Assembly: GCA_900318015.1 (NCBI GenBank)
Contig: ONJB01000007.1
Location: 93,464 to 157,463 of the forward strand
Origin: an uncultured Bacteroidales bacterium
GTDB lineage: Bacteria; Bacteroidota; Bacteroidia; Bacteroidales; UBA932
Reading direction: 5' to 3'
DNA: 64,000 nucleotides
Both the position numbers and the translations under genes were made by a program. Below the pieces are notes generated by a model that did not search any database, was not told where the DNA came from, and saw only the letters and a list, made by a program, of their open reading frames with translations. How positions within the stretch are numbered: the stretch's first letter is position 1; every line of letters begins with the position of its first letter. Below are positions 3,792 through 24,740 of this stretch, in pieces.

Positions 3792-6050
3792 ATGATCCGG
3801 AAACTGATCTCCCTCCTGCCCCTCATGGCGGTGTTTTTCCTGACCGTCTCCTGCGACCCGACCCAGGTCAAGCCGGAGGCCCAGGATACCTTGACGTTGA
3901 GCCCCACCTCGCTTGATTTCGAAGCCGAGGACGCCTCGACCAAGCTGGTGTACGTCACCACGGAAAAGGACTGGACGGCGACGCCTTCCGCCGCCTGGAT
4001 CCACCTGGAGAAGACCTCCGGTACCGGCAAGGGAACCTTGGCGGTGACGGTCGATGCGAACCTGGGTGAAGACCGTTCAGGGTCGATTTCCGTCAAAGGC
4101 TCGAAGACAGAGACGGTTTCCGTGTCCCAGAAAGGCCGGAACATCATCACGGTCGTGGCGAATCCCGACAGCTTCGACGGCAACAAGCGCTCCTCCACGA
4201 CCTACCAGCTGCTCATCTATTCCTTCGCCGACAGCAACGGCGACGGGATCGGCGACTTCAAGGGCATCCAGAACAAGCTGGACTACCTGGACGGCCTGGG
4301 CGTGACGGCCCTTTGGTTGTCGCCGGCCCATCCGTCTGACAGCTACCATGCCTATGACGTGACCGACTATTACGCCGTGAACCCGCTGTACGGCACGGAA
4401 CAGGATTTCAAGAGCCTGATCGACGCGGCCCATGCCAGGGGCATCAAGATCTACATGGACTATGTCCTGAACCACTCCGGAAAGGGCAACGACTGGTTCA
4501 AGCAGGCCCTGGCCGACCCGTCGTCCAAGTACCGCGACTACTATTTCCTCACGCCGAACCCGAAGGCGGACTATTCCAAATTCCCGATGCTCAAGGGGAC
4601 GACCTATCAGGCCGATGAATGGAAGCAGGCGGCGTCCGGTTCTCCCAAGATGACGGTGACCAAGACCACCGAGGCCCTGACCAACGGCAATTCCGACTGG
4701 AATCTTTGGCTCTGGCAGGACGGCGGGGAAGGGAAGACCGTCCGTTTTACCTCCCAGGGCGACGGTTCTTACTATCTGGTCATGGACATCAATGGCAAGT
4801 GGGGGATGCTGGTGCGCAAGTACATGAACTGGGACCCAGGTTCCAAGTTCGGCGCTTCCGGGAACGGCACGGTCACGGAGGGCAAGGCGGTCGACCTGAT
4901 GCCGGACGGCGGCGACATGACCTTCACGGGCTCGGGACGCTACAGGATCGAGCTGACGAACGTGTCCACGGAAACCCTGTACTACATGGGCTGCTTCAGC
5001 GATTGGATGCCGGACCTGAACTACGGCGATCCCGCGGCGGCCGAGACCAATCCCACATTCATGGACATCGCCGCTTCGGCCGACAAGTGGATCAACCTGG
5101 GGGTCGACGGTTTCCGCCTGGATGCGGTCAAGCACATCTGCGGAGGCATCAATTCCTACAACAACACGGCCAACCAGACCTTGTTGAAAAAGTGGTATGA
5201 CCACTGCAATGCGACCTATCAGGCCGCCGGTCACAGCGATAATATCTTCATGGTCGGCGAGGCATGGGACAGTCACAATGTGGAGCAGAACTATTACAAG
5301 GGCCTCACGTCCTGTTTCGAGTTCGGCTATTGGCCTGTCCTTTACAAGGCTTTGGCGAATCAGAATGCATCGAGCTATGTTTCCACGGTCAGTGGATTCA
5401 TCGAGGACCACAAGAAAGTCCGCTCCGATGCAATCACCTCCTTCTTCATGACCAATCATGACCATTCCAGCCAGACCGGTGGCGGCGAGGTCCGTGCCGC
5501 CGATGACCTGGGGAAGGATCCGGCCAAGGAGAAGCAGGCCGCGGCCATGCTCCTGACCACGCCGGGGAAGCCCTTCGTCTATCAGGGCGAGGAACTGGGC
5601 TATTGGGGTAATTCCAAGGGGAAGGGGGACGAGTATCTCCGGGCCCCGATTCTCTGGGACAAGGCCGGCAAGCACTGCGCGAAGAAGGGCGTGAACAACA
5701 AGGTGGACAACGCGATGCTCACTTCCGCCATTTCCGTGGAGGCGCAGGACGCCGATGCGAACAGCCTCCTGAACGTCTACAAGACCTGGAGCCGTCTCCG
5801 CAACATTTACCCGGCCCTCGCCGAAGGCACGATGACCGATGCCTCCCTGGGGGGCGGCAATACCATCGCCGCCTGGTATATGACGGCCGGCAGCCAGAAG
5901 CTCCTTGTGATCCACAATACGGCGTCCAAGGAAAAGCCTGTCACCGTCAAGGACGATATGTCCCGTGCGGTCGGCCTCCTCGGCACCGCGACGATCGACC
6001 ACGACGTCCTCACCCTGGGCCCGAACTCCTCGGTGGTGTTCAAGCTGTAG
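3792..6050 (+). CDS. SusG-like GH13 alpha-amylase lipoprotein with N-terminal BACON domain
   Basis: This is a 752-residue extracellular endo-acting alpha-amylase. A lipoprotein signal ends at Cys21 (LTVSC), followed by a BACON-type beta-sandwich (about residues 32-110, with W-x-x-x-P-S-A-A-W-I and G-S-I-S-V). The GH13 barrel carries all catalytic residues: nucleophile Asp444 in GFRLD, acid/base Glu490 in MVGEAWD and Asp557 in TNHDH. An insertion at about residues 272-398, rich in W, Y and beta-type sequence, interrupts the barrel where Bacteroides SusG carries CBM58; I infer it is a comparable starch-binding insert. SusG is usually about 690 residues and has no BACON domain. It follows the SusE/F gene after a 95-nt hairpin-containing gap and probably cleaves starch at the cell surface for the preceding SusCD. 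Confidence 0.93.
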   Translation: MIRKLISLLPLMAVFFLTVSCDPTQVKPEAQDTLTLSPTSLDFEAEDASTKLVYVTTEKDWTATPSAAWIHLEKTSGTGKGTLAVTVDANLGEDRSGSISVKGSKTETVSVSQKGRNIITVVANPDSFDGNKRSSTTYQLLIYSFADSNGDGIGDFKGIQNKLDYLDGLGVTALWLSPAHPSDSYHAYDVTDYYAVNPLYGTEQDFKSLIDAAHARGIKIYMDYVLNHSGKGNDWFKQALADPSSKYRDYYFLTPNPKADYSKFPMLKGTTYQADEWKQAASGSPKMTVTKTTEALTNGNSDWNLWLWQDGGEGKTVRFTSQGDGSYYLVMDINGKWGMLVRKYMNWDPGSKFGASGNGTVTEGKAVDLMPDGGDMTFTGSGRYRIELTNVSTETLYYMGCFSDWMPDLNYGDPAAAETNPTFMDIAASADKWINLGVDGFRLDAVKHICGGINSYNNTANQTLLKKWYDHCNATYQAAGHSDNIFMVGEAWDSHNVEQNYYKGLTSCFEFGYWPVLYKALANQNASSYVSTVSGFIEDHKKVRSDAITSFFMTNHDHSSQTGGGEVRAADDLGKDPAKEKQAAAMLLTTPGKPFVYQGEELGYWGNSKGKGDEYLRAPILWDKAGKHCAKKGVNNKVDNAMLTSAISVEAQDADANSLLNVYKTWSRLRNIYPALAEGTMTDASLGGGNTIAAWYMTAGSQKLLVIHNTASKEKPVTVKDDMSRAVGLLGTATIDHDVLTLGPNSSVVFKL

Positions 6051-6104: not shown

Positions 6105-7697
6105 ATGAGGAAGATCCTTCATATCATTGCGCTGCTTTTTTTGGCGCTGGCCCCCTTGCAGGGGCGGGAAAGGGAGCCGTGGCTGGATGAACTGGATGCG
6201 GAGCTGGCGAAGAAGGAAGAGTATGACGCACGGAAGGAGGCCCGGATCGGGCAGCTGCGCGGGCGGCTCCGTTCCGCGCTGGATGACCGGGAGCGTTACG
6301 GCGTCACGCAGGAGCTGTACGAGGAATACCAGAGCTACAAGTACGATTCGGCTTATGCGTACGCGCAGGAGATGGCCCGGCTGGCGGCCGTGGCGGATCT
6401 GCCGGATGCCCGTGTGGAGGCCGGCTGCGCCACGACGTTCTGCCTGATTTCCGCCGGCCTGTACAAGGAGGCGTTCGACGTGATGGACGGCCTGCGTACG
6501 GACGGTGTCTCGCCCAGGATCCTGCTGGAATACTACAAGATGCAGGTGCGGCTGAACTATTCGGCCCGCGGCTATTCCCAGACGCCCCCTTATTGGGACA
6601 TCTATTCCCGGGCGGGGGAGGAATACAGCCGGAAAATCCTGGAGATGGTTCCCGAGGGGTCTCCCACCTGGTGGGAATACCAGGCGAACTACCTGATGGA
6701 AAGCGCACAGTATGAGGAGGGCATCGCGGCGTTCAACCGCCTGCTGGCCGACGAGAACCTCGACCTGCATTCCCGCGCCATCTTCGCGTCCTCGGTCGGC
6801 TGGCTCCAGCACTGCCTGGGCCGGGACGACGAGGCCATCAAGTCGCTCTGCGAATCGGCCATCTTCGACCTCAAGTCCTCCACCAAGGAGACGACCGCGC
6901 TCCGGATGCTCGCCGAATACCTGACCCGCCGGGGCGAGGTGGAACGGCCGTCGCGCTATGTGCGGGAGTCCTTCGACGACGCCAACTTCTACAACGCCCG
7001 CCTCCGCAAACTGGAGGTCGGCGCGGTGCTGCCCCTGGTGGAGAAGAACCATTACGACAGTCTGCAGCGGGAGCGGAACCTGCTGGCGTGGGGACTTGCA
7101 CTGCTCGCCCTGGTCATCCTGGCTGCCGTGTCCGCGCTCCTGTTCATCCGGCGCCAGAACCGCCGCCTGCACGAGGCGCGCGCGACCATCGAGGAGCGGA
7201 ACGCCCAGCTGGAAGCCGCGAATGTGCAGCTCGCGGAGGCGAACGAAATCAAGTCGGAATACATCGGAAACTCCTTCTACATCAATTCCGAGTTCCTGGA
7301 CAAGATGTCCCAGCTGTACAAGATGGTGGACCGGATGATCGTCACCCGGCAGTACGACGAACTGCGCCGCTCCCTGAAGGAATCCACCATCGACAAGGAG
7401 CGGGACGAGATGTACGAGTCCTTCGACCATACCTTCCTCAAGATCTTCCCGACCTTCGTCAACGACTACAACGCCCTGTTCCCGGAAACGGAGCAGCGGT
7501 TCCCCGCGGAAGGCCTCACGCCGGAGATGCGGATCTTCGCCCTCATCCGCCTCGGAATCTCCGAGACGGATCGCATCGCCAAGTTCCTGGACTACTCCGT
7601 CCATACCATCAACACGTACAAAACGCGCGTGAAGAACAAGTCCTGGGTGGAAAACGAGCAGTTCGAGGCCGAAATCATGAAGATCGGGGCCCGGTAA
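6105..7697 (+). CDS. susR: SusR-like membrane-spanning transcriptional regulator (TPR region plus DUF6377-type C-terminus)
   Basis: This is a 530-residue regulator. It has a signal/anchor at the N-terminus, a helical TPR-like periplasmic region (about residues 20-320), one membrane segment from about residue 326 to 349 (LLAWGLALLALVILAAV) followed by RRQNRR, a coiled coil rich in E, A, L and Q, and a C-terminal helical region with a LuxR-like pattern (TPEMRIFALIRLGISETDRIAKFLDYSVHTI, written in short: EMRIFALI...VHTINTYKTRVKNKS). This is the layout of Bacteroides SusR, which senses maltose in the periplasm and activates sus genes. The gene lies between the two Sus modules, directly before susC, with a perfect inverted repeat 43 nt downstream of its stop. 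The name rests on architecture and context rather than on an alignment. Confidence 0.8.
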   Translation: MRKILHIIALLFLALAPLQGREREPWLDELDAELAKKEEYDARKEARIGQLRGRLRSALDDRERYGVTQELYEEYQSYKYDSAYAYAQEMARLAAVADLPDARVEAGCATTFCLISAGLYKEAFDVMDGLRTDGVSPRILLEYYKMQVRLNYSARGYSQTPPYWDIYSRAGEEYSRKILEMVPEGSPTWWEYQANYLMESAQYEEGIAAFNRLLADENLDLHSRAIFASSVGWLQHCLGRDDEAIKSLCESAIFDLKSSTKETTALRMLAEYLTRRGEVERPSRYVRESFDDANFYNARLRKLEVGAVLPLVEKNHYDSLQRERNLLAWGLALLALVILAAVSALLFIRRQNRRLHEARATIEERNAQLEAANVQLAEANEIKSEYIGNSFYINSEFLDKMSQLYKMVDRMIVTRQYDELRRSLKESTIDKERDEMYESFDHTFLKIFPTFVNDYNALFPETEQRFPAEGLTPEMRIFALIRLGISETDRIAKFLDYSVHTINTYKTRVKNKSWVENEQFEAEIMKIGAR

Positions 7698-7739
7698 GGC
7701 CAATACAACCGTTATATTTTTCTCCCGGAGAGAGGGGGT

Positions 7740-7764
7740 TAATACGCTGGTTCACAGCGTATTA
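7740..7764. promoter_or_regulatory. Perfect 10-bp inverted repeat upstream of susC, candidate SusR operator
   Basis: TAATACGCTG (7740-7749) and CAGCGTATTA (7755-7764) are exact reverse complements around a 5-nt spacer. The element lies about 57 bp upstream of a consensus -7 box. That distance fits an activator site. It is not followed by a T-run but by a mixed AT-rich stretch. I did not find another copy elsewhere in the window by eye. Confidence 0.6.
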
Positions 7765-7820
7765 AAATGTTTTAGAATTATATTTTCCCTATTTATTTCG
7801 GACGCGCGTGAGAATCCCGG

Positions 7821-7828
7821 TAATTTTG
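7821..7828 (+). promoter_or_regulatory. Bacteroidetes -7 promoter box for susC operon
   Basis: TAATTTTG matches TAnnTTTG exactly. It lies 46 nt before the susC ATG; the -33 region is only weakly matched (TTTC near 7796), as expected for an activator-dependent promoter. Confidence 0.6.
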
Positions 7829-7874
7829 CGGTACACTGACAACAGTAACCCAAAATAACCAACTACCAACCCCC

Positions 7875-10805
7875 ATGAAAAGGATTCTTTCCGCAATGAC
7901 CCTCCTGCTTGTCGCAGCGGGTATGGTATTCGCCCAGGGCGGATACCAGGTCAAGGGCGTGGTCGTTGACGCCCAGGGTCCGGTTATCGGAGCCACCGTC
8001 TTGCAGCAAGGCACGATGAATGGCACCACGACCGGTCTGGACGGAGACTACGTCCTCCGCGTGCCGGATGGTGATGCTCTGGTGGAAATCAGCTGCATCG
8101 GCTACGCCACGCAAGTTTTCAAGGCCTCCGAGGTGCCTGCCCAGGTCATCCTCTTCGAGGACACCGAGTTCCTCGACGAAGTCGTGGTCATCGGCTACGG
8201 TACCCTGTCCAAGAAAGAGGTATCCGCGTCCATCGTCCAGGTGGACAGCAAGGACTTCTTCCGCGGCACCACCAACAACCCGATGACGATGCTCACCGGT
8301 AAGGTGGCCGGCCTGAACGTCGTGACCAGCCAGGGCTCCAACCCGAACTCCGGTTCCGACTATCAGATCCGCGGCGCCACCTCCCTGCAGGCCGGCAACG
8401 GCCCGCTCGTGGTGATCGACGGCGTGCCGGGCGGCGACATCCGCTCCCTCGCCCCGCAGGACATCGAGTCCATGACCGTCCTGAAGGATGCGGCTTCCGC
8501 TTCCATCTACGGTACGGCCGGCGCGAACGGCGTCATCCTCGTGACCACCAAGAAGGGTTCCAAGGACGAGGCCGGTACGGCCCATGTCACCTATGACGGC
8601 GCATTCAACGCGAACTTCGTGAAGGCCCCGATCGCCGTCCTGACTCCGGAAGAGTGGGTCCGTTCCCGCCGCGGCACCGACTACGGCGCCCGTACGGACT
8701 GGTACAACGCGCTCCTGCGCGACTTCTCCTATGGACACTCGCATTACGTGGGCGTGGACGGCAGCACCGCCAAGGGCTCCTACAACGCTTCCGTATCCTA
8801 CAAGAACTCCCTCGGTGTGGACCTCGTGGACGCCCGTGAGGAATTCGGCGCCCGCGCCGCCGTGGAGCAGCGCCTCATCAAGGACATCCTCCAGCTGAAC
8901 ATCAGCCTGAACGCCCGTCGCGTGAACGAGGAGTATGGCAATGACGGTTCCTTCGGCACCGCCCTCACCATCAACCCGACGTTCCCGATCTACAACGACG
9001 ACGGCTCCTACTACCAGCCGACCGCTCCGACCGGCGCTACGAACCCGGTCGAGGCGATGCTCAACAAGACCGCTAACGGCCAGCGCCTCTACACCACCGG
9101 CGCCGTGTCCCTGAAGGCGAACTTCATCAAGACAGACGTCCACAACCTGAGCTCCACGGTCACCTACTCCCTGGACTACAACGATTACAAGTCCAACAAC
9201 TACACCCCCATCGAGTCCCATGACAAGTACTGGAACGGCTATGAGGGCACCGCTTCCCTGAGCTATTCCAAGAACTGGCGCAACCAGCTCGAGTGGCTGT
9301 TCAACTACTCCTTCCATCAGGGAGCCCACCATCTCAATGCCGTGGCCGGCTATTCCTACCAGGACCACAACTCCGAGAGCATGAACATGACCAACCGGGG
9401 CTTCACCTATGATTCCCTCCTGTGGAACGACATCGGCGCCGGTACCGCCCGCACTGAGAATCCCGCCCAGACGGGCATGGGTTCCGGCAAGTCCCTCTCC
9501 AAGGTCATCGCCCTCCTGGGCCGTGTGAACTACAACTGGAACAACACCATCTTCGCTTCCCTGTCCCTCCGTCACGAAGGCGCCACCAACTTCGGCGCGA
9601 ACCACAAGTGGGGTAACTTCCCCGCCGCCTCCATCGCCTGGGAAATGGCGAACATGGACTTCATGCGGGGCGCCCGCTGGATCAACAGCCTCAAGCCCCG
9701 TGTCTCCTACGGTGTCACCGGCCGTCGCGGCGGTTCCAACGTGTCCCGCCCGACCTACGGCAGCCATGGCCAGTACTTTATGGACGGTGAGTGGGTGAAG
9801 GGCTACCGCCCGGCCTCCAATGCGAATCCGGACCTGCGCTGGGAGAAGCTCGTGGCCGTGAACGTCGGTGTCGACTTCGTCTTCTTCGACAACCGCCTGC
9901 GCGGCAGCATCGACCTGTACGACCGCCGCAGCCCGGACCTGCTGTACAACTATACCGCTCCGCAGCCGCCGTTCATCCACAGTTCCATCCTCGTGAACGT
10001 GGGTGAGACCCAGAACCTCGGCGCCGAGCTCGCCCTGGACGCTGACGTGGTGAAGACGAAGAATTTCACCTGGACCTCCGGCATCAACGCCTCCATCGGC
10101 TATTCCAAGATCAAGACCCTGTCCAACCAGATCTACGGCGCCTCCTACATTGACATGCTGGGCACCGGCGGCCTGGGACAGACCTCCTACTACTACCGCT
10201 ACACCGAAGGAAGCCGCCTTGGTACCCTGTACGGCTACCAGGCCGCGGGCGTGAACGAGTTCGGTGACATGATGGTGTACGACAACGACGGCAACGTGAT
10301 CACCGCCGCTTCCGCCAACGCCGCCTTCAAGCGCTACATCGGCAACACCATCCCGAAGCTGTTCCTGTCCTGGAACAATACGTTCCGCTACAAGCACTGG
10401 GACCTGAACGTGTTCATGAACGGCGCCTTCGGCCACATGATCTACAACAACCGCCGCGCCGGCAACCTCCAGAGCTCCGGTAACGCCAACGTCTTCCGTA
10501 CGGCCTACACCCGCGACAAGGATGTCCGCGAATACGGCGGCGTCGTCACCTCCTACTTCCTGGAGCACGGCGACTTCATGAAGCTGCAGAACGTCTCCCT
10601 GGGCTACACCCTGAATCCGAAGAACACGGATATCATCCGGAGCCTCCGCATCTTCCTGACCGCGACCGACCTGTACACCTTCACCGGTTACACCGGCACC
10701 GATCCGGCCCTGCTTTCCACCAACGGACTGACTCCGGGCGTGGACAACGGCGTCGGCTATCCCGAGACCCGCGTTGTCACCCTGGGTGCGACCGTCACCT
10801 TCTAA
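7875..10805 (+). CDS. susC: SusC-family TonB-dependent outer-membrane transporter
   Basis: This is a 976-residue SusC-type porin for TonB-driven import of glucan oligosaccharides. It has a signal peptide (MKRILSAMTLLLVAAGMVFAQ), a carboxypeptidase-D regulatory-like domain (about residues 25-105, with VKGVVVDAQGPVIGATV), a TonB box (DEVVVIGYGT), a plug domain with the family motifs QIRGATSL, PLVVIDGVPGG and LKDAASASIYG, and a 22-strand barrel ending in the aromatic residue of VTF. It heads the second Sus operon; susD follows after 12 nt. The operator-like inverted repeat and -7 box lie in the 177-nt upstream gap. Starch specificity is inferred from the GH13 and GH97 genes in the same run. Confidence 0.96.
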   Translation: MKRILSAMTLLLVAAGMVFAQGGYQVKGVVVDAQGPVIGATVLQQGTMNGTTTGLDGDYVLRVPDGDALVEISCIGYATQVFKASEVPAQVILFEDTEFLDEVVVIGYGTLSKKEVSASIVQVDSKDFFRGTTNNPMTMLTGKVAGLNVVTSQGSNPNSGSDYQIRGATSLQAGNGPLVVIDGVPGGDIRSLAPQDIESMTVLKDAASASIYGTAGANGVILVTTKKGSKDEAGTAHVTYDGAFNANFVKAPIAVLTPEEWVRSRRGTDYGARTDWYNALLRDFSYGHSHYVGVDGSTAKGSYNASVSYKNSLGVDLVDAREEFGARAAVEQRLIKDILQLNISLNARRVNEEYGNDGSFGTALTINPTFPIYNDDGSYYQPTAPTGATNPVEAMLNKTANGQRLYTTGAVSLKANFIKTDVHNLSSTVTYSLDYNDYKSNNYTPIESHDKYWNGYEGTASLSYSKNWRNQLEWLFNYSFHQGAHHLNAVAGYSYQDHNSESMNMTNRGFTYDSLLWNDIGAGTARTENPAQTGMGSGKSLSKVIALLGRVNYNWNNTIFASLSLRHEGATNFGANHKWGNFPAASIAWEMANMDFMRGARWINSLKPRVSYGVTGRRGGSNVSRPTYGSHGQYFMDGEWVKGYRPASNANPDLRWEKLVAVNVGVDFVFFDNRLRGSIDLYDRRSPDLLYNYTAPQPPFIHSSILVNVGETQNLGAELALDADVVKTKNFTWTSGINASIGYSKIKTLSNQIYGASYIDMLGTGGLGQTSYYYRYTEGSRLGTLYGYQAAGVNEFGDMMVYDNDGNVITAASANAAFKRYIGNTIPKLFLSWNNTFRYKHWDLNVFMNGAFGHMIYNNRRAGNLQSSGNANVFRTAYTRDKDVREYGGVVTSYFLEHGDFMKLQNVSLGYTLNPKNTDIIRSLRIFLTATDLYTFTGYTGTDPALLSTNGLTPGVDNGVGYPETRVVTLGATVTF

Positions 10806-10817
10806 TCCGCGAGCGAC

Positions 10818-12623
10818 ATGAAAAAGATATTCAACACCATCGCACTTGCAGCGGCCGCTCTCAGCCTGACCGCTTGCTTCGACCTCACCGAGCAGGCCTT
10901 CAACCGGATCGAAGCCGACAACTTCTACCAGAACGAAGGCAGCGTGAAGGGCGCCATCGCTTCCGTGTACTACACGGCGGAAGGCTCCTTCGGCGAGTAT
11001 TTCTTCTACCTGAACGAGTTCTCCGCCGACCAGATCGCCTGGCGCGTGTGGAACGGCGGACAGTGGGGATGGGACAACGCCGAGAAGTTCGTCCTCTCCT
11101 CCCATACCTGGACTTCCCAGTCCTCCATCATCCAGAGCGCCTGGAACAACACCTGGGGCGCCATCGGCGAGGTCAACAGCATCATCCATGACCTGGAGAC
11201 CATGGACCTCGAGGCCATCGGCGTCTCTCCGGAGCACGCCGCCCAGTACATCGGCGAAATGCGGACCCTCCGCGCCTGGTGCTACTACAACCTCTTCGAG
11301 GTCTGGGGCGGCGCCCTGCCGCTCAACACCGAGGTGACTTCCGAGGTCCCCGGTTCGGCCGATCCCGATTTCGACACCTCCTGCAAGAAGATCTATGACT
11401 TCCTGATGACGGAGCTGGACGAGAGCCTCGGCGACCTTCCGAAGAACAACGTGAACCGCATGAACCAGGCGACCAACCGCATGATCAAGGCCCGCCTGCT
11501 GCTGAATGCCCCCGTGTTCATCAAGGAGGACCACTTCTCCGAGTGCGCGACCCTGTGCCAGAGCATCATCAACGGTGAATTCGGCACGTACGCCCTCGCG
11601 GACGACTACCGGGACATCTACAACCCGGACAATGTCAACTGCCCCGAGGTCGTGTTTGCGCTCGCTTACGAGTACGGCAAGTCCGCCGGCAACGCCTACA
11701 ACATGCGCGACGTCACGTTCCTCCCGTACAACGCCTTCGGCGATCCGCTCTCCATCCTGGGCTCCAACAACGACCAGGGCCGTTGGAACTGCGTGATCAT
11801 CGCCCCGTCCCACGACAACACCGGTACGGTCCTCCCGACCGGCGGTACCGACACGGGCGGCAAGTCCTTCCTGTTCGACTATGGTGACAAGCTGGGCGCC
11901 GTGTACGATCGTTTCGACAACCGCGACATCCGCAAGAAGGCCTACCACGCCGACGAGAAAGGCAACTGGGAAGGTCTCTTCCTGATGGGCCCGCAGGTGG
12001 ACTACTACACCGGCGCCGCCATGCCGGCCGACGCCGACCGCGAAGGCCAGGATCTCGTGTACGTGGACCAGGTGGGTACCTTCCAGAACAAGGGCCGCGA
12101 CCTGGCGCCCGTCATGTCCCCGCACTGGGGCGAGACGAACTCCGGTTTCCGCATGCTCCGCTACCCGATTCTCCCGGATGTCTGCGGCGTGGATTTCCGC
12201 GACACGGACGAGGTTGAATTCCGGCTGGCCGAGGTCTATTACATGCTGGCCGAGTGCAAGCTCCGCGCGGGCGACGCCAACGGTGCCAAGGATCTCGTGA
12301 ACCAGGTCCGCAGGCGCTACTTCAAGGCTTCCGACTGGACGTCCGTCCAGAATGAGCCGGGTCCGGGCTTCTCCGCCTTCGACCTCGACTGGATGCTCAA
12401 CGAGTGGGGCAAGGAGTTCCTCTGCGAGGGACGCCGCCGCCGCACCGATCTCCGCCGTTATGACGTGTTCACCCAGGGCCAGTGGTGGTTCTTCGGCCGT
12501 GGCGAGGGTGACGACGCCTATCCCGCCAAGCGCGACCGCAAGTATGAGTGGTTCCCGCTGCCGGAGGCCGCCCTCACGGTGAACCCCGGCCTCGTGCAGA
12601 ATCCTAACTATGTAGCTCAGTAA
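10818..12623 (+). CDS. susD: SusD-family starch-binding outer-membrane lipoprotein
   Basis: This is a 601-residue SusD lipoprotein that caps the upstream SusC. The signal ends in LTAC at Cys20. The RagB/SusD signature is clear: an N-terminal helical TPR part with MRTLRAWCYYNLFEVWGG, and a C-terminal part with FRLAEVYYMLAECKLRAGD, LVNQVRRRYF, WGKEFLCEGRRRRTDLRRYD and the closing NPGLVQNPNY. Its stop codon overlaps the next start in a TAATG arrangement, which suggests translational coupling with the CBM-repeat lipoprotein that follows. Confidence 0.95.
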   Translation: MKKIFNTIALAAAALSLTACFDLTEQAFNRIEADNFYQNEGSVKGAIASVYYTAEGSFGEYFFYLNEFSADQIAWRVWNGGQWGWDNAEKFVLSSHTWTSQSSIIQSAWNNTWGAIGEVNSIIHDLETMDLEAIGVSPEHAAQYIGEMRTLRAWCYYNLFEVWGGALPLNTEVTSEVPGSADPDFDTSCKKIYDFLMTELDESLGDLPKNNVNRMNQATNRMIKARLLLNAPVFIKEDHFSECATLCQSIINGEFGTYALADDYRDIYNPDNVNCPEVVFALAYEYGKSAGNAYNMRDVTFLPYNAFGDPLSILGSNNDQGRWNCVIIAPSHDNTGTVLPTGGTDTGGKSFLFDYGDKLGAVYDRFDNRDIRKKAYHADEKGNWEGLFLMGPQVDYYTGAAMPADADREGQDLVYVDQVGTFQNKGRDLAPVMSPHWGETNSGFRMLRYPILPDVCGVDFRDTDEVEFRLAEVYYMLAECKLRAGDANGAKDLVNQVRRRYFKASDWTSVQNEPGPGFSAFDLDWMLNEWGKEFLCEGRRRRTDLRRYDVFTQGQWWFFGRGEGDDAYPAKRDRKYEWFPLPEAALTVNPGLVQNPNYVAQ

Positions 12624-15043
12624 TGACCATGAAAAGAATCTTATCCTATCTGACGATACCGGCCCTTTTCCTCGCCGCAGCTGCCTGCGCGCCGAAGGAA
12701 GAGATCAAATTCGCCCATGAGGAGCAGGCCTTCGACACCCGGAGCGACCGTATCCTGGTGGAGGCCATCCTCCCGCAGGCGACCGCGGCCGACGATGAGG
12801 TATATATCATCGGCGCTTTCAACGGCGGCGAGGCCGCCGTGGGCAACAGCGCCTACCGGCTCACCCGTTCGGCGGCCATCCCCGCCAAGTGGGGTGTCTA
12901 TGTGGATCCCTCGGCGTTCCAGGGCGGCAAGACCCTCGCCGACGGTTTCACCTTCTTCAATGTCCAGCAGGGTATCGAACGCGGTCCCAAGAACGAGGAC
13001 GTCACGCACAAGCTGACCATCGGCCTGGGCGAATGGGCCAATGTCTATGCCGACAAGTGGGCCAAGTACTTCGAGCCGCCGGTGACCCCGGATACGCCTA
13101 CGCTGCCCGAACATGACGGTGTGCGCGTGTACATCATTGACCAGACCGGCTGGGATGCCATCGCCCTGTACCAGTGGGGTGACGTGAACAACTTCGGCGG
13201 CGACTGGCCGGGCGCTCAGGTGACCGGTACGTGGACCTTCAACGGCCAGGAGTACAAGTACTTCGAATATGGCGAAGACATCTTCGGCCTGGGTCAGAAC
13301 CTGATCTTCAACAACAATAACAACGGGACGCAGCTCGCGGACTACAATGTCCGGTTCGAGGACGGTGTGCAGGACTACTTCTTCCTGGTGACCGCCGACG
13401 GCGTGTCCGAGGCTCCGAACCCGGTCGACGGCGCTTCCGCCGATCCGCGCGCGGCCATGACCGAGACCAGCCCTTGGGGCGTGATCGGTTCCATCGCCAG
13501 CACCGGCAACAGCTGGGGCGCGGACGAGCCGATGGTCACCGACGGCACCTGGCATGCGTGCCTGGGCCTGACCCTTTCCGCCGCCGACGAGTTCAAGTTC
13601 CGCAAGGACGCCGACTGGGGTGTCAACTTCGGCGGTGACTTCGTCGCGCTGGGCGAGTCCTTCGAGGTGAAGCAGGACGGCGCCAACATCAAGGGCCTTG
13701 AAGACGGTACCTACGACCTCTTCCTGAACCCGGATGCCGCCATCGTCATCATCGTGAACGCCGGCGATCCGGTCACCCTGCCTTCCGGCGAAGGCGGTGA
13801 CACCCCGGAACCTCCGGTGGAGGAGACCAAGGCTCCCGTGACGATCTATGTCCAGGACGCCTCCGGCTGGGAGAACCTGTACCTCTATATGTGGGGTGAC
13901 AAGGAACTCTGCGGCGGCTGGCCCGGCACGGCCGTGACCGAAACCGAGAAGTTCGGGTCCGTCTTCTACAAGAAGATCGTCGTCGATGACGCGGAAGGCC
14001 GCGCCGAGAACCTCATCTTCAACAACAACGCCGGTACGCAGACCGAGAGCTTCGCCGTCACCCTGTCCGGAGAGCTGTTCGTCTCCCTGGATGCGGACGG
14101 TGTCATCACGCCCATCGACCCGCGCAACCCGGACATCCGGATCTACATCCAGAACCAGACCAACTGGGACGCCATCGCCCTGTATGCCTGGGGTGACGCC
14201 GAAGCCTTCGGCGGCTGGCCGGGCGCTACGCCGGTGAATACCGAGACCGTCGGGGATGTGGAATACCTGGTGTTCGGTCTCCCGGCGGACATGGCCGGCA
14301 AGAAGCTGAACCTCATCGTGAACAACAACGGCGGCGGCAAGCAGCTCGACGAGCTCGCCATCACCGTTCCGGAGGAGGAGATGTTCCTGGTGATCAATGC
14401 CAGCTACTCCCTCGGCGTCGTGGACGGCAACCCGCGCGGCGCGGACAAGAAGCGCGTGGCCGTGTTCGTGGACGACCAGACCGGCTGGGACGGCTTCGCC
14501 CTGTACCAGTGGGGTGATGTGAACAACCTTGGCGGCGGCTGGCCCGGCGCCCAGGTGGGTGCCACGGTCACCATCGGCGGGAAAGACTGGAAGGTGTTCT
14601 TCTTCGAGGACGCCCTGGGTCTCAACCAGCACCTGATCTTCAACAACAACGGCGGCGGCACCCAGCTCCCCGACTACGACCTCAAGTTCGAGAAGAACGA
14701 GTACTTCCTGACGGTCACGGCTGACGGCGTCACGGCTGTCGATGCGCCCGAGACGGTCGTTGTCTTCGTGGACGACCAGACCGGTTGGGATACGATCACC
14801 CTGTACATGTGGGGTGACGTGAACAACCTCGGCGGCGGCTGGCCCGGCGTGGCCGTGGGCGGCGAAGCCACCGTGAACGGCATCGCCACCAAGATGTTCG
14901 TCATCGACGAGGCCTTCGGCAAGGCCGAGAACCTCATCTTCAACAATGGCGGCAACGGCACCCAGCTCGGGGACTATGCCCTCAAGTATGAGCGCAATGC
15001 CTACTACCTGAAGGTGACGGCTTCCGGCGTCTCCGTCTTCTGA
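12623..15043 (+). CDS. Surface lipoprotein with five CBM26-like starch-binding repeats and one SusE/F-type module
   Basis: This is an 806-residue SusE/F-position lipoprotein. The start is either the ATG overlapping the SusD stop or the ATG two codons later; both give the same lipobox (LAAAACAP). After an N-terminal domain (to about residue 150) there are five repeats near residues 166, 405, 504, 611 and 711. Each shows a V/I-x-(V/I)-(Y/F) start, an NQTNWD or DQTGWD turn, LYxWGD, a GGWPG motif and an LIFNNN motif. That pattern fits starch-binding CBM26-type domains. A different module at about 283-378 (GVIGSIA, DGTWHA, DEFKFRKDADW) belongs to the SusE/F type and closely matches modules 1 and 2 of the lipoprotein at 775-3696. 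The likely role is avid multivalent starch capture at the cell surface. Confidence 0.85.
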   Translation: MTMKRILSYLTIPALFLAAAACAPKEEIKFAHEEQAFDTRSDRILVEAILPQATAADDEVYIIGAFNGGEAAVGNSAYRLTRSAAIPAKWGVYVDPSAFQGGKTLADGFTFFNVQQGIERGPKNEDVTHKLTIGLGEWANVYADKWAKYFEPPVTPDTPTLPEHDGVRVYIIDQTGWDAIALYQWGDVNNFGGDWPGAQVTGTWTFNGQEYKYFEYGEDIFGLGQNLIFNNNNNGTQLADYNVRFEDGVQDYFFLVTADGVSEAPNPVDGASADPRAAMTETSPWGVIGSIASTGNSWGADEPMVTDGTWHACLGLTLSAADEFKFRKDADWGVNFGGDFVALGESFEVKQDGANIKGLEDGTYDLFLNPDAAIVIIVNAGDPVTLPSGEGGDTPEPPVEETKAPVTIYVQDASGWENLYLYMWGDKELCGGWPGTAVTETEKFGSVFYKKIVVDDAEGRAENLIFNNNAGTQTESFAVTLSGELFVSLDADGVITPIDPRNPDIRIYIQNQTNWDAIALYAWGDAEAFGGWPGATPVNTETVGDVEYLVFGLPADMAGKKLNLIVNNNGGGKQLDELAITVPEEEMFLVINASYSLGVVDGNPRGADKKRVAVFVDDQTGWDGFALYQWGDVNNLGGGWPGAQVGATVTIGGKDWKVFFFEDALGLNQHLIFNNNGGGTQLPDYDLKFEKNEYFLTVTADGVTAVDAPETVVVFVDDQTGWDTITLYMWGDVNNLGGGWPGVAVGGEATVNGIATKMFVIDEAFGKAENLIFNNGGNGTQLGDYALKYERNAYYLKVTASGVSVF

Positions 15044-18524: not shown

Positions 18525-20555
18525 ATGAAAAAGACCGTTCTCGCGGCCGTGGCGATCCTTCTCGCGGCCTGCTCCCCGAAGACCTCCGTCTCTTCGCCGG
18601 ACGGCCGGATTTCCGTCCGGTTCGAACTGACCCCTTCCGGTGTTCCCACCTATGCCGTGGAAGTGGATGGGCAGCCGTTGCTGGAACCCTCTGCCATGGG
18701 CCTGGTTTCCGAAGACGTGGTCCTGGACCAGGGATTTGCGCTCAAGTCCTCCAAGGTCAGCAGTTTCCGGGAGACCTGGCACCAGCCTTGGGGCGAGAAC
18801 AAGGAGGTGGAAGACAACCACCGGGAGCTTTCCTTGAAGCTGAAGAATGACGCAGGCGTCGGCCTGGAGGTCGTGTTCCGCGTGTTCGACGACGGATTCG
18901 GTTTCCAGTACGCCTATGCGGCGCCAGGCGTCGATACGCTCCGGATCAGCGGCGAGCGGACGCAGTTCGCCTTCGCCGCCGACGCGGACACCTGGTCCAT
19001 CCCGGGGGATTTCAATTCCTACGAACACCTGTACCGCAAGATGCGGCTGTCGGAACTCCCGGATGCCAATACGCCGCTGACGCTCAAGTTCTCCGACGGT
19101 CTGTATGCCGCGGTCCACGAGGCCGCGCTGGTCGATTTCCCCGAGATGGTGCTTCGCCATGCGGACGGCCTGTCTTTCCAGGCTTCGTTGGCTCCGCTCC
19201 GGCAGCAGCGCCGCCGTCGGGGGCAGCCCGTCGAAGAAACCAATGACGTGAAGGCCGTCGTCCCGGGCTCTTTCCAGACCCCCTGGCGGACGGTCCAGAT
19301 TGCCCATTCCGCCGTGGGCCTCATCAATTCTTCCCTCATCCTGAACCTCAACGAGCCCTGCGCCCTCACGGACGTCTCCTGGATCAAACCGATGAAATAC
19401 ATCGGCGTGTGGTGGAGCCTGCACCTGGGCGTTGAGTCCTGGGGCGGGGAAGGCCACGGCGCGACGACGGAGAATGCGATGCGCTACATCGACTTTGCCG
19501 CCGCCAACAACATCCAGGGCGTCCTGTTCGAAGGCTGGAACGACGCCTGGCACAATTCCGATGCCATGCCCGAGTTTGACTTCACGAGCCCGGCGCCGGA
19601 CTATGACGTGGCGAAAGTGGCCGCGTACGCCCGCGAGAAGGGCATTTACCTGATTACCCACAATGAGACCGGCGGCAATTATCTCCGCTTTGAGGACCAG
19701 CTGGAGCGCGCCCTGGACTGGGACGCCTCGCTGGGCATCCATGCGATGAAGACCGGCTATGCCGGCGGCGGTCTGTCAGGCGGCGCCCCGCGCCACAGCC
19801 AGACCGGCGTCCGCCACTTCCAGAAGGTGGTGGAAGAAGCCGCCGAGCGGCAGATCATGGTGGACGGCCACGAAGTCATCAAGGAGACGGGCCTGCGCCG
19901 CACCTGGCCCAATTTCATGACCCGGGAATGCGTCCGGGGCATGGAATACAACGGCTGGGGCCCGGGCAATCCGCCGTCCCATACGGTCATCCTCCCGTAC
20001 ACGCGTCTGCTGAGCGGTCCGGTGGACTATACGCCGGGCGTGTTCGACATCAAGTACACATGCGTCCAGGGCAAGCCGCAGCTCCGCACCTGGGGCCGGC
20101 CGAGCTCCGACTTCAGCGAGCACACCACCTTGGCGAAACAGATGGCCAACTGGGTGATTCTCTACTCGCCGATGCAGATGGCCTGCGACCTGCTGGAGAA
20201 CTACGAGGGACATCCCGCCTTCCAGTTCTTCCGCGACTTCGATGCCGATTGTGATGCCTCCGAGGCCCTCCAGGGCGAGGTGGGCGAGTGGATCAGCGTT
20301 GTCCGCCGCGCCGGCGACCGCTTCTTCCTGGGCGCTTCCACCGACGAGACCGGCCGCACCTTCGACCAGCCGCTGACCTTCCTGCGCCCCGGCGTCCGCT
20401 ACACCGCCACCGTCTATGGCGACGCCGCCGACGCGCACTGGGATACGAATCCCACCGCCTACGAGATCACCACTTGCAGCGTGACTTCCGAAGATACCCT
20501 CACCCTCCGTCTCGCCCCCGGCGGCGGCGCTGCGGTGACTTTCCTGCCCGAATAG
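18525..20555 (+). CDS. susB: GH97 alpha-glucosidase, SusB-like, lipoprotein signal
   Basis: This 676-residue GH97 enzyme releases glucose from starch oligosaccharides. It starts with a lipoprotein signal (LLAACSPK), whereas classical SusB is a soluble periplasmic protein of about 738 residues. The N-terminal beta-sandwich is followed by the barrel with typical GH97 stretches: IKPMKYIGVWWSLH, VLFEGWNDAWHN, DGHEVIKETGLRRTWPN and TRECVRGMEYN, then YSPMQMACDLLENYEG. The Glu in DGHE (residue 450) at the base position argues for the inverting, calcium-dependent SusB type rather than the retaining type; this is inference without an alignment. An Arg/Gln run (RQQRRRRGQP) lies near residue 226. The gene is 128 nt from the upstream gene but in the same locus. 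Confidence 0.9.
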   Translation: MKKTVLAAVAILLAACSPKTSVSSPDGRISVRFELTPSGVPTYAVEVDGQPLLEPSAMGLVSEDVVLDQGFALKSSKVSSFRETWHQPWGENKEVEDNHRELSLKLKNDAGVGLEVVFRVFDDGFGFQYAYAAPGVDTLRISGERTQFAFAADADTWSIPGDFNSYEHLYRKMRLSELPDANTPLTLKFSDGLYAAVHEAALVDFPEMVLRHADGLSFQASLAPLRQQRRRRGQPVEETNDVKAVVPGSFQTPWRTVQIAHSAVGLINSSLILNLNEPCALTDVSWIKPMKYIGVWWSLHLGVESWGGEGHGATTENAMRYIDFAAANNIQGVLFEGWNDAWHNSDAMPEFDFTSPAPDYDVAKVAAYAREKGIYLITHNETGGNYLRFEDQLERALDWDASLGIHAMKTGYAGGGLSGGAPRHSQTGVRHFQKVVEEAAERQIMVDGHEVIKETGLRRTWPNFMTRECVRGMEYNGWGPGNPPSHTVILPYTRLLSGPVDYTPGVFDIKYTCVQGKPQLRTWGRPSSDFSEHTTLAKQMANWVILYSPMQMACDLLENYEGHPAFQFFRDFDADCDASEALQGEVGEWISVVRRAGDRFFLGASTDETGRTFDQPLTFLRPGVRYTATVYGDAADAHWDTNPTAYEITTCSVTSEDTLTLRLAPGGGAAVTFLPE

Positions 20556-20567
20556 GCCCATCGACTT

Positions 20568-23500
20568 ATGAAACAACACGGACTCCTTTCTTTGCTCGCC
20601 GCCCTGTTCCTCGCGGTGGGCGCGCATGCCGCGGACATCCAGCGCATGGATCCTCCCTTCTGGTATGCCGGTATGAAGAACCACGAACTCCAGGTGATGT
20701 TCTATGGAAAGGACATCGCCCAGGCGGAGTTCTCCCTGAAATCCTATCCGGGCGTCCAGGTCAAGGAGGTTGCGAAGGTCAAGAACCCGAACTACCTGAT
20801 CGTATATCTGGATGTCACGGAGAAGGCCCGTCCCGGCACGATGACTTTCCGCTTCAAGGAGGGTCGTAAGGTCACCGAGAAGGCCTTCGAACTCCGTCCG
20901 CGCAACACGAAGACAGGCGCGCAGGGCTTCTCCACAAAGGATGTGCTGTACCTGATCATGCCGGACCGTTTCGCCAACGGCAATCCTGCCAATGACGACT
21001 GGGAGCAGTTCAAGGCCGACCGCCGGAACGGGGGCGGCCACCATGGCGGCGACCTGCAGGGCATCCGGGACCACCTGGGCTACATCGATTCGCTCGGGGT
21101 CACGGCCGTCTGGCTCAATCCGGTCCAGTACAACCGGAGCAATGCCTCGCACGGCTATGCGATTTCGGACTTCTACCTGATCGACCCGCGGCTTGGGACC
21201 AACGAGGAGTACTGCGGCCTGGTCGACGCCGCCCACGGACGGAACATCAAGGTGGTAATGGACATGATCTTCAACCATTCGGGGAGCACCCATTGGTGGA
21301 TCGAGGATATCCCGGACGATGACTGGTTCAACCAGGACGCCTATGCGAAGAAGCTGTCGGAGCGGCAGCGGCAGGGACCGCCGGAGGGCGGATTCCGCCG
21401 CGGACCGCGCGGGAACGACGGGTTGACGACCACGACCCACTACAAGTGGGTGCTCATGGACCCGCACGCGCCCCAGTCCGAGAAGGACGTCCTCCTGGAC
21501 GGCTGGTTCTCGGGCGGTATGCCGGACCTGAACCAGCGCAACCGTCACCTGGCTACCTACCTGATCCAGAACAGCGTCTGGTGGATCGAGTATGCGCGTA
21601 TCGACGGTATCCGCATGGACACCTATCCCTATGCCGACTATGATTTCATGACCCGCTGGTGTCGGGAGATCGAGGATGAGTATCCCGATTTCAATATCGT
21701 GGGCGAGGGCTGGTACCCCCGCAATTCCGCCGCCGGCTGGTGGCAGCGCGGATCGGCCCTGAACCCGTCCGACACGCACCTGAAGACGGTCATGGACTTT
21801 GACCTGACCTTTACGATCCAGCGCGAGATTCTCCAGGAAAGCAATACCAGCGAAGGCTCCGAGGCCGGTCTGTTCAAGGTTTATGAGACCGTCGCGCAGG
21901 ACTTCCTGATTCCCGATCCGGACCATGTACTCACCTTCCTGGACAACCATGACATCAGCCGCTTCATGCAGCCGGGCGATCCCGTCTGGAAGTTCAAGCA
22001 GGGCCTCGCGTTCCTCGTGACTTCCCGCGGCATCCCGCAGATCTACTATGGGACGGAGATCGCGATGGCGGGTCCCGACCAGCTCCGCGGCGATTTCCCG
22101 GGCGGCTGGAAGGAGGACCCGGCGAGCGCCTTCACGGCGGCCGGCCGCAACCCCGTCCAGAACGAGTGCTGGGATTTCGCGAGCAGGCTCCTGAACTGGC
22201 GCCGGACCTCGAAAGCGGTCACAGAAGGCCGCCTGGTCCACTATACCCCTGATAACCAGACCAAGTGCTATGTTTATGCCCGCATCGCCGGCGACGACAC
22301 CGTTCTCGTGATCCTGAACGGTTCCGACACCGAGCGCGAGCTGAACATGACCCGTTTTGCCGATGTCATCGGAATGCATACCTTCGGGGTCGATGTCGTG
22401 ACCGGCGAACTGGTCAATTTGACTTCGACTGTCCGGATGGCGCCCCGTGGCGTGCATGTGCTGGAACTTCGGTCCGCCGAGGTACCGGCGCCGCCGTACG
22501 CCGTTTTCTCCGAAGGCCTGATCGACCGGATCCAGCCCGAAGGCTGGCTGAAGGAAATCCTCCAGCGGCAGCGCGACGGATTGACCGGCCATCCCGAGGC
22601 GATGGCTTATCCTTATAATTCCGTCCTCTGGGCCGGTACGCTGGAGCGGGACTCGGAGTCCCGCGGCGCGGACTGGTGGCGCTTCGAACAGACCGCCTAT
22701 TATCTGGACGGCCTCACCCGCCTGGGTTTCCTGCTGGATGACAAGCATTTCCTGGATGTCTGGCAGGAGAACATCGACTATGTCCTTGCCCATCCGCTGC
22801 CTTTCAAGGCCGGTCTGACACCCGAAGAGCTGGCGGCCCGGGATGCCGGGCGTCCGCGACGGAACTTCGATGCGGAGGTCTCGGCCGATCCGCGGGCCCG
22901 TGCGCGGGCCGCCCAGATGCAGGCACGACGGGAACGCGAGAACCGCATCGCCGCCACCGACCGGCCCGAAGGTCGCCTCGGCCCGGAAACGGGCTCGATG
23001 GCCTGGCCGTGGGCCGTTTTCTTCCGGGCGGTGAAGGCGTATTATGAGGCGACCGGCGATCCGCGGATTCCGGCCGCCCTGGAAAAGAACTATCTGTCCT
23101 ATTCCGTTCCGGAACTGGCGATGAACCGGTTCGTGGTGAACGTGGAGGGGATGCTATGGACCTATTCGCTGACCGGGGACCGCCGGCTCCTGGACCACGC
23201 CGTCGCGGCCTGGGAGGAGGGCGCTTCCGAACTCACGCAGGCCAGCGCCCTGGATGACAGCGAATTCCACATGCACGGGGTGACAATGAACGAGCTGCTC
23301 AAGATCCCGATGCTCCTCTATTCCTATACCGGAGAACGGAAATATCTCGACGCGGCCCTGCATGCGATGCAGAAGATGGAGGGGCCGAATCTGCTCGTGG
23401 ACGGCATCAATTCCTCCTCCGAGGCCTTGGCCGGGAACGACCCGCTCGCCAGTCACGAGACGTGCGACGTGTCCGACTATACCTGGACCCTGGGCTATTA

Positions 23501-24494
23501 CCTGATGGCCACCGGGGACGGCCAGTGGGCGGACCGGATCGAGAAAGGCATCTTCAACGGCGGCCTGGGGTCGATTACCAAGGACTTCAAGTCCATGCAG
23601 TATTTCTCCTGCCCGAACCAGGTCATCGCCACCGGTAATTCCAACCACAACGGCTTCAAGCACGGCCTGACCTGGATGGCCTATCGGCCCATCCATGAGA
23701 CGGAGTGCTGCATCGGCAACCTGCATCGTTTCCTGCCGAACTATGTGGCCCGGATGTGGCTGAAAGACAAGAAAGGACATCCCGTCGCCGCCCTGTATGG
23801 TCCTTCCTCCGTGGAATATGACCTGGGAGGAGGAAGGGCTGTGCGCATCGTGGAAGAAACCGGCTATCCGTTTGAAGAGCAGGTGCGCTTCCGCTTCACT
23901 TTCCTGCAGGATGGCAAGGAGACGGACTGGCCCGTCGAGATGGACTTCACCTACCGGATTCCGGCCTGGTGCAAGGCGGGCAACCCCGGATTCAAGACGG
24001 TCAGCAAGACCTGGAAGACCGGCGATGTCCTGACGGTCGACCTGCCGATGGACATTGAAATTGTCGACAATCCCGGGTCGGGAACAGCCGTCCAGCGGGG
24101 CCCGATCCTGTATGCCTTCCCGGTTCCGGCGAAGGTCGAAGAGGATCCGAAGGTCTATGAGAACCTGGCCGGGAAGGTATCGGCCAACCCGGATTTCAAG
24201 AGCTGGAGCATGAAGCCGGCAGGCGCGTGGAACTACGCCCTGGTCCGGAACCGGCTGAACGGCCTCCGGGTCCAGGCGACCGGCGCGAAGGGCTTCCCGT
24301 TCGACCCGGAATCCGTTCCGATGAAAATCCGTGTTCCGGTCGTCGGGGTGAAGGGCTGGACGCTGCAGGAGGACCGGTACACCCCCGCCTTGCCCGAAAC
24401 GATTGAAGCGGAAGGCCCCGTCAAATACATCGACCTGGTCCCTTACGGCAGCACGACCCTGCGTCTGACGCTGTTCCCGGAAATCAACCTGTAA
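20568..24494 (+). CDS. Fusion enzyme: GH13 neopullulanase-type N-half plus GH127-type C-half
   Basis: This is an exported 1308-residue two-enzyme fusion with a signal peptide (MKQHGLLSLLAALFLAVGAHA). Residues 22-120 are the neopullulanase N-domain and about 120-640 a GH13 barrel with Asp351 (GIRMDTY), Glu380 (VGEGW) and Asp462 (DNHDIS), so this half should be active. From about residue 645 the sequence is GH127-type (DUF1680): GWLKEILQRQRDGLTGH, HMHGVTMNELLKIP, HETCDVSDYTWTLGYYL and HETECCIGNLHR. The cysteine-zinc site of GH127 (Glu-x-Cys and Cys-Cys) is intact as Glu964, Cys966, Cys1047 and Cys1048. GH127 enzymes described so far are mainly beta-L-arabinofuranosidases. The frame is open across the junction and the coding looks continuous. 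A basic Ala/Arg-rich insert lies near residues 760-805. Confidence 0.9.
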   Translation: MKQHGLLSLLAALFLAVGAHAADIQRMDPPFWYAGMKNHELQVMFYGKDIAQAEFSLKSYPGVQVKEVAKVKNPNYLIVYLDVTEKARPGTMTFRFKEGRKVTEKAFELRPRNTKTGAQGFSTKDVLYLIMPDRFANGNPANDDWEQFKADRRNGGGHHGGDLQGIRDHLGYIDSLGVTAVWLNPVQYNRSNASHGYAISDFYLIDPRLGTNEEYCGLVDAAHGRNIKVVMDMIFNHSGSTHWWIEDIPDDDWFNQDAYAKKLSERQRQGPPEGGFRRGPRGNDGLTTTTHYKWVLMDPHAPQSEKDVLLDGWFSGGMPDLNQRNRHLATYLIQNSVWWIEYARIDGIRMDTYPYADYDFMTRWCREIEDEYPDFNIVGEGWYPRNSAAGWWQRGSALNPSDTHLKTVMDFDLTFTIQREILQESNTSEGSEAGLFKVYETVAQDFLIPDPDHVLTFLDNHDISRFMQPGDPVWKFKQGLAFLVTSRGIPQIYYGTEIAMAGPDQLRGDFPGGWKEDPASAFTAAGRNPVQNECWDFASRLLNWRRTSKAVTEGRLVHYTPDNQTKCYVYARIAGDDTVLVILNGSDTERELNMTRFADVIGMHTFGVDVVTGELVNLTSTVRMAPRGVHVLELRSAEVPAPPYAVFSEGLIDRIQPEGWLKEILQRQRDGLTGHPEAMAYPYNSVLWAGTLERDSESRGADWWRFEQTAYYLDGLTRLGFLLDDKHFLDVWQENIDYVLAHPLPFKAGLTPEELAARDAGRPRRNFDAEVSADPRARARAAQMQARRERENRIAATDRPEGRLGPETGSMAWPWAVFFRAVKAYYEATGDPRIPAALEKNYLSYSVPELAMNRFVVNVEGMLWTYSLTGDRRLLDHAVAAWEEGASELTQASALDDSEFHMHGVTMNELLKIPMLLYSYTGERKYLDAALHAMQKMEGPNLLVDGINSSSEALAGNDPLASHETCDVSDYTWTLGYYLMATGDGQWADRIEKGIFNGGLGSITKDFKSMQYFSCPNQVIATGNSNHNGFKHGLTWMAYRPIHETECCIGNLHRFLPNYVARMWLKDKKGHPVAALYGPSSVEYDLGGGRAVRIVEETGYPFEEQVRFRFTFLQDGKETDWPVEMDFTYRIPAWCKAGNPGFKTVSKTWKTGDVLTVDLPMDIEIVDNPGSGTAVQRGPILYAFPVPAKVEEDPKVYENLAGKVSANPDFKSWSMKPAGAWNYALVRNRLNGLRVQATGAKGFPFDPESVPMKIRVPVVGVKGWTLQEDRYTPALPETIEAEGPVKYIDLVPYGSTTLRLTLFPEINL

Positions 24495-24730: not shown

Positions 24731-24740
24731 GGAGCAGGCT

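Follow-up and report, generated by a model that had tools for sequence, protein, structure and literature searches.

The window analysed here, a 64,000-nucleotide stretch of contig ONJB01000007.1 from an uncultured Bacteroidales bacterium, carries within a Sus-type starch locus a gene whose product joins a SusA/cyclomaltodextrinase-type GH13 enzyme to a second, cysteine/zinc-type glycosidase (hereafter the C-half). Sequence comparisons suggest, with slightly better than even confidence, that the product is a starch-locus enzyme with two active sites, the C-half of which would strip a substituent or a terminal residue from alpha-gluco-oligosaccharides. The fusion is recurrent, which is strong genomic evidence for two enzymes sharing one substrate, and it ties the use of alpha-glucan to cysteine/zinc glycosidases of an orphan branch, allowing a concrete, assayable guess at its function.

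An earlier note on this DNA had described one open frame of 1308 residues. The open reading frame (ORF) at positions 20568–24494 of the forward strand was indeed found intact, with no internal stop, and neither a stop nor a frameshift was present at the junction of the two halves. Public genomes were scanned for relatives with four C-halves and 80 of 168 relatives were kept, genes being called with custom scripts, by length and then by codon score. The same GH13–glycosidase frame, which the note had proposed to look for, was present in 12 of these 80 related loci, whereas the glycosidases of the other 68 were not fused to a GH13. All 12 fused loci originated from uncultured Bacteroidales or Bacteroidia, and five were labelled with a ruminant stomach or gut site. 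As two pairs were near-copies (L067/L069 and L070/L081), the fusions represent about 11 distinct lineages, the window included. Because the 12 loci belong to other assemblies, the two-part frame is not a product of chance or misassembly; an artefact of assembly or frame in this 106-contig draft genome was rejected as having a negligible probability, the same frame occurring elsewhere with different linkers. A search of plasmid records with the C-half returned 208 records, all below 60% identity among the 10 of 208 matches listed.

The N-terminal half (residues 1–635) was covered by the Pfam domains Cyc-maltodext_N (residues 26–113), Alpha-amylase (130–508, 175.6 bits) and Cyc-maltodext_C (556–633), so the GH13 barrel is flanked by the N and C domains of cyclomaltodextrinases. 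The closest solved relatives were SusA (9fyz, 567 bits), an alpha-amylase-domain protein (9dcq, 536 bits) and a cyclomaltodextrinase (1h3g, 471 bits), the last of which we take to be the Flavobacterium enzyme. This enzyme is described as the representative of GH13_46. SusA and the Flavobacterium cyclomaltodextrinase resemble the GH13 half in domain order, in the GH13 triad and in belonging to a Sus-type locus, but their solved chains run to about 600 residues, whereas in the fusion the C-terminus is extended by another enzyme, some 668 residues in length. In an alignment of the window with 11 of the 12 other fusions the triad was invariant; presumably, by the roles usual in the family, Asp351 is the nucleophile, Glu380 the acid/base and Asp462 the transition-state stabiliser. 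The protein is probably soluble in the periplasm, since its probable Sec signal peptide (residues 1–21) is not followed by a lipobox.

The C-half scored above the Pfam cut-off for the GH127 catalytic domain (residues 858–1059, 53.6 bits against a cut-off of 24.9), the match covering only positions 181–374 of the 376 of the profile and lying near the bottom among the PF07944 matches listed; a Glyco_hydro127M match followed at residues 1075–1161. The structure model of the C-half showed the GH127/GH146 (clan GH-P) fold, and the residues of the zinc-bound cysteine nucleophile site common to that clan were present. All seven catalytic residues named in the earlier note, namely the GH13 triad and Glu964, Cys966, Cys1047 and Cys1048, were confirmed at their positions and a putative acid/base, Glu952, was added. 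The corresponding site of HypBA1 consists of E322, E338, C340, C417 and C418, and the spacing noted as similar is 81 residues between Cys966 and Cys1047 versus 77 between Cys340 and Cys417 in HypBA1, as given in PMC10728902. The HETC motif was found in 80 of 80 loci and ECCxGN in 76, the distance from the HETC cysteine to ECCxGN being 81 residues in each of the 76. Glu952 (position 312 of the half) was invariant in the alignment of the window with the C-halves of 48 of the 80 loci, and it aligned with the matching Glu of Ara127N and BT3674; the HMMER alignment to HypBA1 was gapped there and a strict pattern of the Glu952 motif matched 53 of 80 loci.

The low and partial Pfam score could be taken as a sign of a non-catalytic C-half module, or of a neutral fusion. 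Such an explanation is very improbable in view of the catalytic residues being invariant in the 49 aligned homologues, HETC being universal and the fusion being kept in 12 loci besides that of the window. Moreover, the ratio of non-synonymous to synonymous substitution rates (dN/dS), determined against four relatives with dS of 0.67–1.4, partly near saturation, was 0.08–0.17 across both halves and 0.11–0.16 for the C-half. The chemistry of the C-half is very probably the retaining mechanism with a zinc-bound cysteine known for GH127 and GH146.

The C-half had been called GH127-type. GH127 profiles and folds were matched, and the Glu-x-Cys plus Cys-Cys site was present; the site is, however, common to GH146 as well. 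The canonical GH127 protein of the same genome scored 523 bits with a GH127 structure, whereas the C-half scored 41 bits (108 as a profile); the GH146 protein of this genome scored 670 bits with Bacteroides thetaiotaomicron GH146 (5opj) and 91 bits with the GH127 structure. In BLAST comparisons with the canonical GH127 gene, the C-half (83 bits) and the GH146 gene (84 bits) were equally distant. In a family tree of 40 members, GH127 (nine rows), GH146 (nine rows) and the C-half clade (12 rows) each formed one group with 100/100 support, so the C-half grouped with neither canonical family. A group joining the C-half clade to nine remoter proteins, encoded in genomes that belong to the family of the window, likewise had 100/100 support, and its stem was about 2.0 changes per site long, compared with 1.6 for GH127 and 1.8 for GH146. 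The tree included 12 of the 49 C-half rows and 14 of the 27 loci of L136–L163 (L155 left out), 13 being dropped for short frames that probably resulted from wrong-strand reading; its GH127 and GH146 labels came from BLAST to two anchor genes, and DagA and BT1003 were absent from it. As the tree carried a long-branch warning, was midpoint-rooted and had an unresolved deep order (59/13), the claim made here concerns separateness and not the order of branching. By these sequence comparisons, the C-half is a separate branch, at a distance from canonical GH127 that is about that of GH146, and "GH127-type" is therefore too loose a name. An identity of the C-half as an aceric-acid hydrolase was rejected, the NCBIfam model giving 51.9 bits against a cut-off of 950.

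Both parts of the fusion belong to known fold groups. In structural alignment the C-half was 15–18% identical to GH127 proteins (HypBA1, Ara127N, BT3674 and BT1003) and 14–15% identical to GH146 proteins (5opj and Bll3HypBA1). At the cysteine pair it carries CCxGN, whereas eight of nine GH127 rows had CCP, the ninth (L163) having CCVGN, and all nine GH146 rows had CC-x-G-T/S-G. PMC10850190 gives clan GH-P as GH127 plus GH146, with 19–23% identity of one GH146 to GH127 paralogues. The view that known GH127 members act on beta-L-arabinofuranosides proved incomplete, as the family also includes the aceric-acid hydrolase BT1003 and alpha-1,3-(3,6-anhydro)-D-galactosidases such as Zobellia DagA, according to PMC5698469. 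DagA offers a precedent for a specificity other than arabinofuranose (PMC5698469), likened here by description, but it belongs to a carrageenan cluster. The statement that a GH13–GH127 fusion had not been described held: none was found among the matches listed in Creative Commons-licensed PubMed Central (PMC) papers, nor by direct phrases there.

Several relatives of the C-half showed unusual features. In the sister branch of the C-half clade, six of the nine proteins (L042, L044, L047, L048, L050 and L051) lacked the E[TSA]C motif, which corresponds to the zinc-ligand Glu-x-Cys of GH127, and kept the CC pair; a different metal site is therefore possible in them. A 2028-residue protein (L046:5645-11731, minus strand) combined a GH127-like enzyme with a 3-keto-disaccharide hydrolase domain, GH43 and CBM35. 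In proteins of 1076–1077 residues (L106:3892-7122, L124:8624-11857), a C-half-like enzyme followed about 450 N-terminal residues, which had no Pfam match in L106, a locus labelled Akkermansiaceae. On contig C16 of the genome of the window, a GH127 gene was found in two neighbouring pieces (L003 and L005, profile positions 126–375 and 1–119) in separate ORFs, possibly owing to a frameshift.

Clues to the origin of the fusion came from loci L071 and L072, in which two GH13 paralogues (x and y) and the glycosidase are separate consecutive genes, with 11–12 bases between y and the glycosidase. The GH13 halves of five fusions (window, L056, L057, L073 and L074) were 69–73% identical to x of L071 and 51–53% to its y, whereas those of eight fusions (L058, L059, L067–L070, L081 and L083) were 67–91% identical to y and 51–54% to x. 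A separate x gene was retained just upstream of the fusion in L058, L070 and L081, and in L059 (72% identity to x). In the C-half tree (window and L056–L103), the x fusions formed one clade (97/99), and the distribution of the fused and separate states required at least two changes. Placing all 13 fused C-halves in one clade was rejected by the approximately unbiased (AU) test (p-AU 3e-46), as was placing the eight y fusions in one (p = 0.0005). Sequence and length of the junction also varied between the groups of fusions. No sign was seen of a GH13 half made as a mosaic by recombination between the tandem paralogues, sliding identity of the window's half being x-like along the whole length.

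Signal peptides and lipoboxes of the relatives were judged by eye and by pattern. A strict lipobox pattern matched 33 of the 68 separate glycosidase genes; its sole match among the 12 fusions (L058) looks false. The fused C-halves start at about the mature N-terminus of the lipoprotein glycosidases, which indicates that the GH13 leader replaced the lipoprotein leader. Judging from these comparisons, at least two separate origins of the fusion are probable. A single fusion event with later fissions is a possible alternative, in which the separate glycosidase genes would have had to regain a lipoprotein leader.

The earlier note had placed the gene in a starch locus. In accordance with this, a SusR-type regulator, a SusC/SusD pair and GH13 and GH97 genes were found together in the window (Table 1), the fusion itself being of the SusA type and starting 12 bases past the end of the GH97 gene. 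The four other scanned glycosidase genes of this locus comprised three GH13 and one GH97. Related loci were compared by their flanks, many of which were cut by contig ends. Another GH13 was detected in the flanks of nine of 12 fused loci versus four of 68 separate loci, the four being the adjacent pairs of L071 and L072, L082 and L093 (a weak match, 114 bits), and SusC or SusD matches were found in seven of 12 versus 12 of 68. In Parabacteroides distasonis An897 (L082), a separate glycosidase gene lay 4.2 kb from a SusA-type GH13; Xylanibacter brevis ATCC 19188 (L130) carries a more distant member. An alkaline-phosphatase gene lay at most 10 bases from the glycosidase gene in L058, L083 and both adjacent loci.

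One type of GH31 (at least 400 bits to the copy of L058, itself one of the twelve) accompanied eight of 12 fused loci, both adjacent loci and three of the 66 remaining loci, in which it ended three bases before the glycosidase gene. The GH31 of the fused loci was closest to 7wj9 (446 bits), deposited as "alpha-xylosidase"; in PMC9061262 this protein is LlGH31_u1, an alpha-1,3-glucosidase of Lactococcus most active on nigerose. A nigerose-active type of GH31 adjoining many fused loci would also suit a C-half directed at an unusual glucosidic bond within the alpha-glucan itself and not at a decoration, as would a Bacteroides bin (L164/L165) in which a stand-alone glycosidase gene lies about 14 kb from a SusA-type GH13, among genes for Gfo/Idh/MocA, AP_endonuc_2 and 3-keto-disaccharide hydrolase proteins. 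This explanation appears quite improbable, the GH127/GH146 activities covered by the consulted parts of PMC5698469, PMC10850190 and PMC10728902 including none on glucosides.

In full, the stretch of the Bacteroides bin also encoded two Gfo/Idh/MocA oxidoreductases, the AP_endonuc_2 protein, the 3-keto-disaccharide hydrolase, two SusC-like proteins, one SusD-like protein and a protein of 1310 residues. The oxidoreductases, AP_endonuc_2 and hydrolase make up a set of the kind that occurs in an oxidative route of glucoside cleavage.

A number of observations weigh against a role of the C-half in alpha-glucan use. No other GH13 was found in the flanks of 64 of the 68 separate relatives, many of these flanks being cut by contig ends. 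Some separate relatives lay near esterases, GH20/GH123, GH115 or pectate lyase, and others among housekeeping-looking genes, as read by eye. Even fused loci were not uniform: in one lineage (L067–L069), flanks of 7–10 kb held no GH13 or SusC/D match and the fusions adjoined GH123, a GntP permease and a probable aminotransferase. The window locus is without a GH31 of the nigerose type, the nearest GH31 (33560–35209) lying 9 kb downstream with 28% identity, and L056 had only a weak GH31 match similar to that of the window. Of the structure prediction proposed earlier, only the C-half part was informative; the full-length model was poor (predicted local distance difference test, pLDDT, 48.8; predicted template modelling score, pTM, 0.41) and so says nothing reliable about domain packing or the relative orientation of the two sites.

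As for GH13 genes outside the locus, a similar neighbourhood with a GntP permease, a PatB-like aminotransferase and GH123 (some names by eye) surrounded both the y fusion of L067–L069 and, in L168/L169, a lone GH13 that was 76–77% identical to the GH13 half of the window. The genomes of L062 and L064, with a separate glycosidase gene, carried on another contig a GH13 77–79% identical to that half.

The stand-alone genes bear on an alternative offered in the earlier note, that of a mixed-glycan locus. The C-half could retain an older activity on plant-wall or glycoprotein glycans, for instance that of a beta-L-arabinofuranosidase, with the fusion merely coupling expression. The nearest characterised folds are beta-L-arabinofuranosidases and aceric-acid hydrolase, distant stand-alone members lie beside GH115, pectate lyase or esterases, and sister-branch genes adjoin a canonical GH127 gene (L042:6921-10836) or sit one gene from it (L048:8594-13690). 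We regard such a retained activity as unlikely, since the branch of the C-half diverged from GH127, two distinct SusA-type paralogues served as fusion partners of its lineage and the other scanned glycosidases of the window locus all belong to GH13 or GH97.

The other possibility raised in the note, a new specificity linked to alpha-glucan, is favoured rather than proven by the recurrent fusion and the gene neighbourhood. That the glycosidase was joined to two distinct SusA-type partners, and that it shares a locus with them, argues for a substrate common to it and the GH13 enzymes. In the proposed scheme, the protein would pass into the periplasm, and its GH13 half would there cleave alpha-1,4 bonds of imported malto-oligosaccharides. 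The C-half would work as a retaining exo-glycosidase through Cys1047 bound to zinc, with Glu964, Cys966 and Cys1048 as further ligands and Glu952 as acid/base, and would take off a substituent or a terminal residue by which GH13, GH97 or GH31 would otherwise be blocked. A formerly membrane-anchored lipoprotein enzyme would thus have been tied to a soluble SusA-type enzyme, placing both steps on one molecule. By family precedent, the sugar removed could be a furanose (furanoside) or a residue resembling an anhydro sugar; by context, its carrier would be an alpha-gluco-oligosaccharide, in the loci with GH31 perhaps one with alpha-1,3 bonds. We put forward tentatively, with somewhat less than even confidence, a wider reading in which the C-half represents a third cysteine/zinc family, of which a lineage was recruited to starch loci and joined to two SusA-type paralogues in independent events, and removes an unrecognised cap or linkage from alpha-gluco-oligosaccharides. 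If so, some "starch" loci of these gut Bacteroidales would process decorated or mixed-linkage alpha-glucan, a role in which they are currently not recognised.

Table 1. Features of the fusion gene and of the starch-type locus in the window.
Feature	Position	Strand	Basis
Fusion gene, 1308 aa	20568..24494	+	ORF and Pfam; two-part frame recurs in 12/80 related loci
Putative Sec signal peptide, residues 1–21, without lipobox	20568..20630	+	Sequence inspected by eye
SusA/cyclomaltodextrinase-type GH13 half	20643..22466	+	Pfam and best solved relatives
Asp351 of GH13 triad	21618..21620	+	Same residue in window and 11 other aligned fusions
Glu380 of GH13 triad	21705..21707	+	Same residue in window and 11 other aligned fusions
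Asp462 of GH13 triad	21951..21953	+	Same residue in window and 11 other aligned fusions
Junction, GH13 C-terminus to mature N-terminus of stand-alone lipoprotein glycosidases	22473..22502	+	Junctions of 13 fusions against separate x, y and glycosidase genes
Cysteine/zinc glycosidase half (residues 641–1308, about 668 residues)	22488..24491	+	Separate branch of GH127/GH146 fold group
Glu952, putative equivalent of HypBA1 Glu322 (acid/base)	23421..23423	+	Homologue alignments
Glu964 and Cys966 (HETC), putative Zn ligands	23457..23465	+	HETC in 80/80 loci
Cys1047 (putative nucleophile) and Cys1048 (putative Zn ligand), ECCxGN	23706..23711	+	Motif in 76/80 loci
GH97 gene	18525..20555	+	Pfam
Two further GH13 genes, 460 and 635 aa	15103..18396	+	Pfam
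SusR-type regulator, SusC, SusD, four-repeat CBM26 protein	6105..15043	+	Domain searches
SusG-like GH13 with CBM58	3792..6050	+	Pfam

Directly after the fusion, the plus strand at 24705–26288 encodes a probable lipoprotein of 527 residues with no Pfam match; a protein of 522 residues, also without a Pfam match, adjoins the separate glycosidase of L040 (11145–12713). The minus strand at 26293–28926 encodes an 877-residue fusion in which an iron alcohol dehydrogenase precedes an aldehyde dehydrogenase, the reverse of the usual domain order of AdhE. Further downstream (31495–31899, plus strand), a short, secreted-looking protein of 134 residues is built of a tandem repeat with a 51-base unit (5.6 copies), reading like QDASYRIIGHIKSDGTV.

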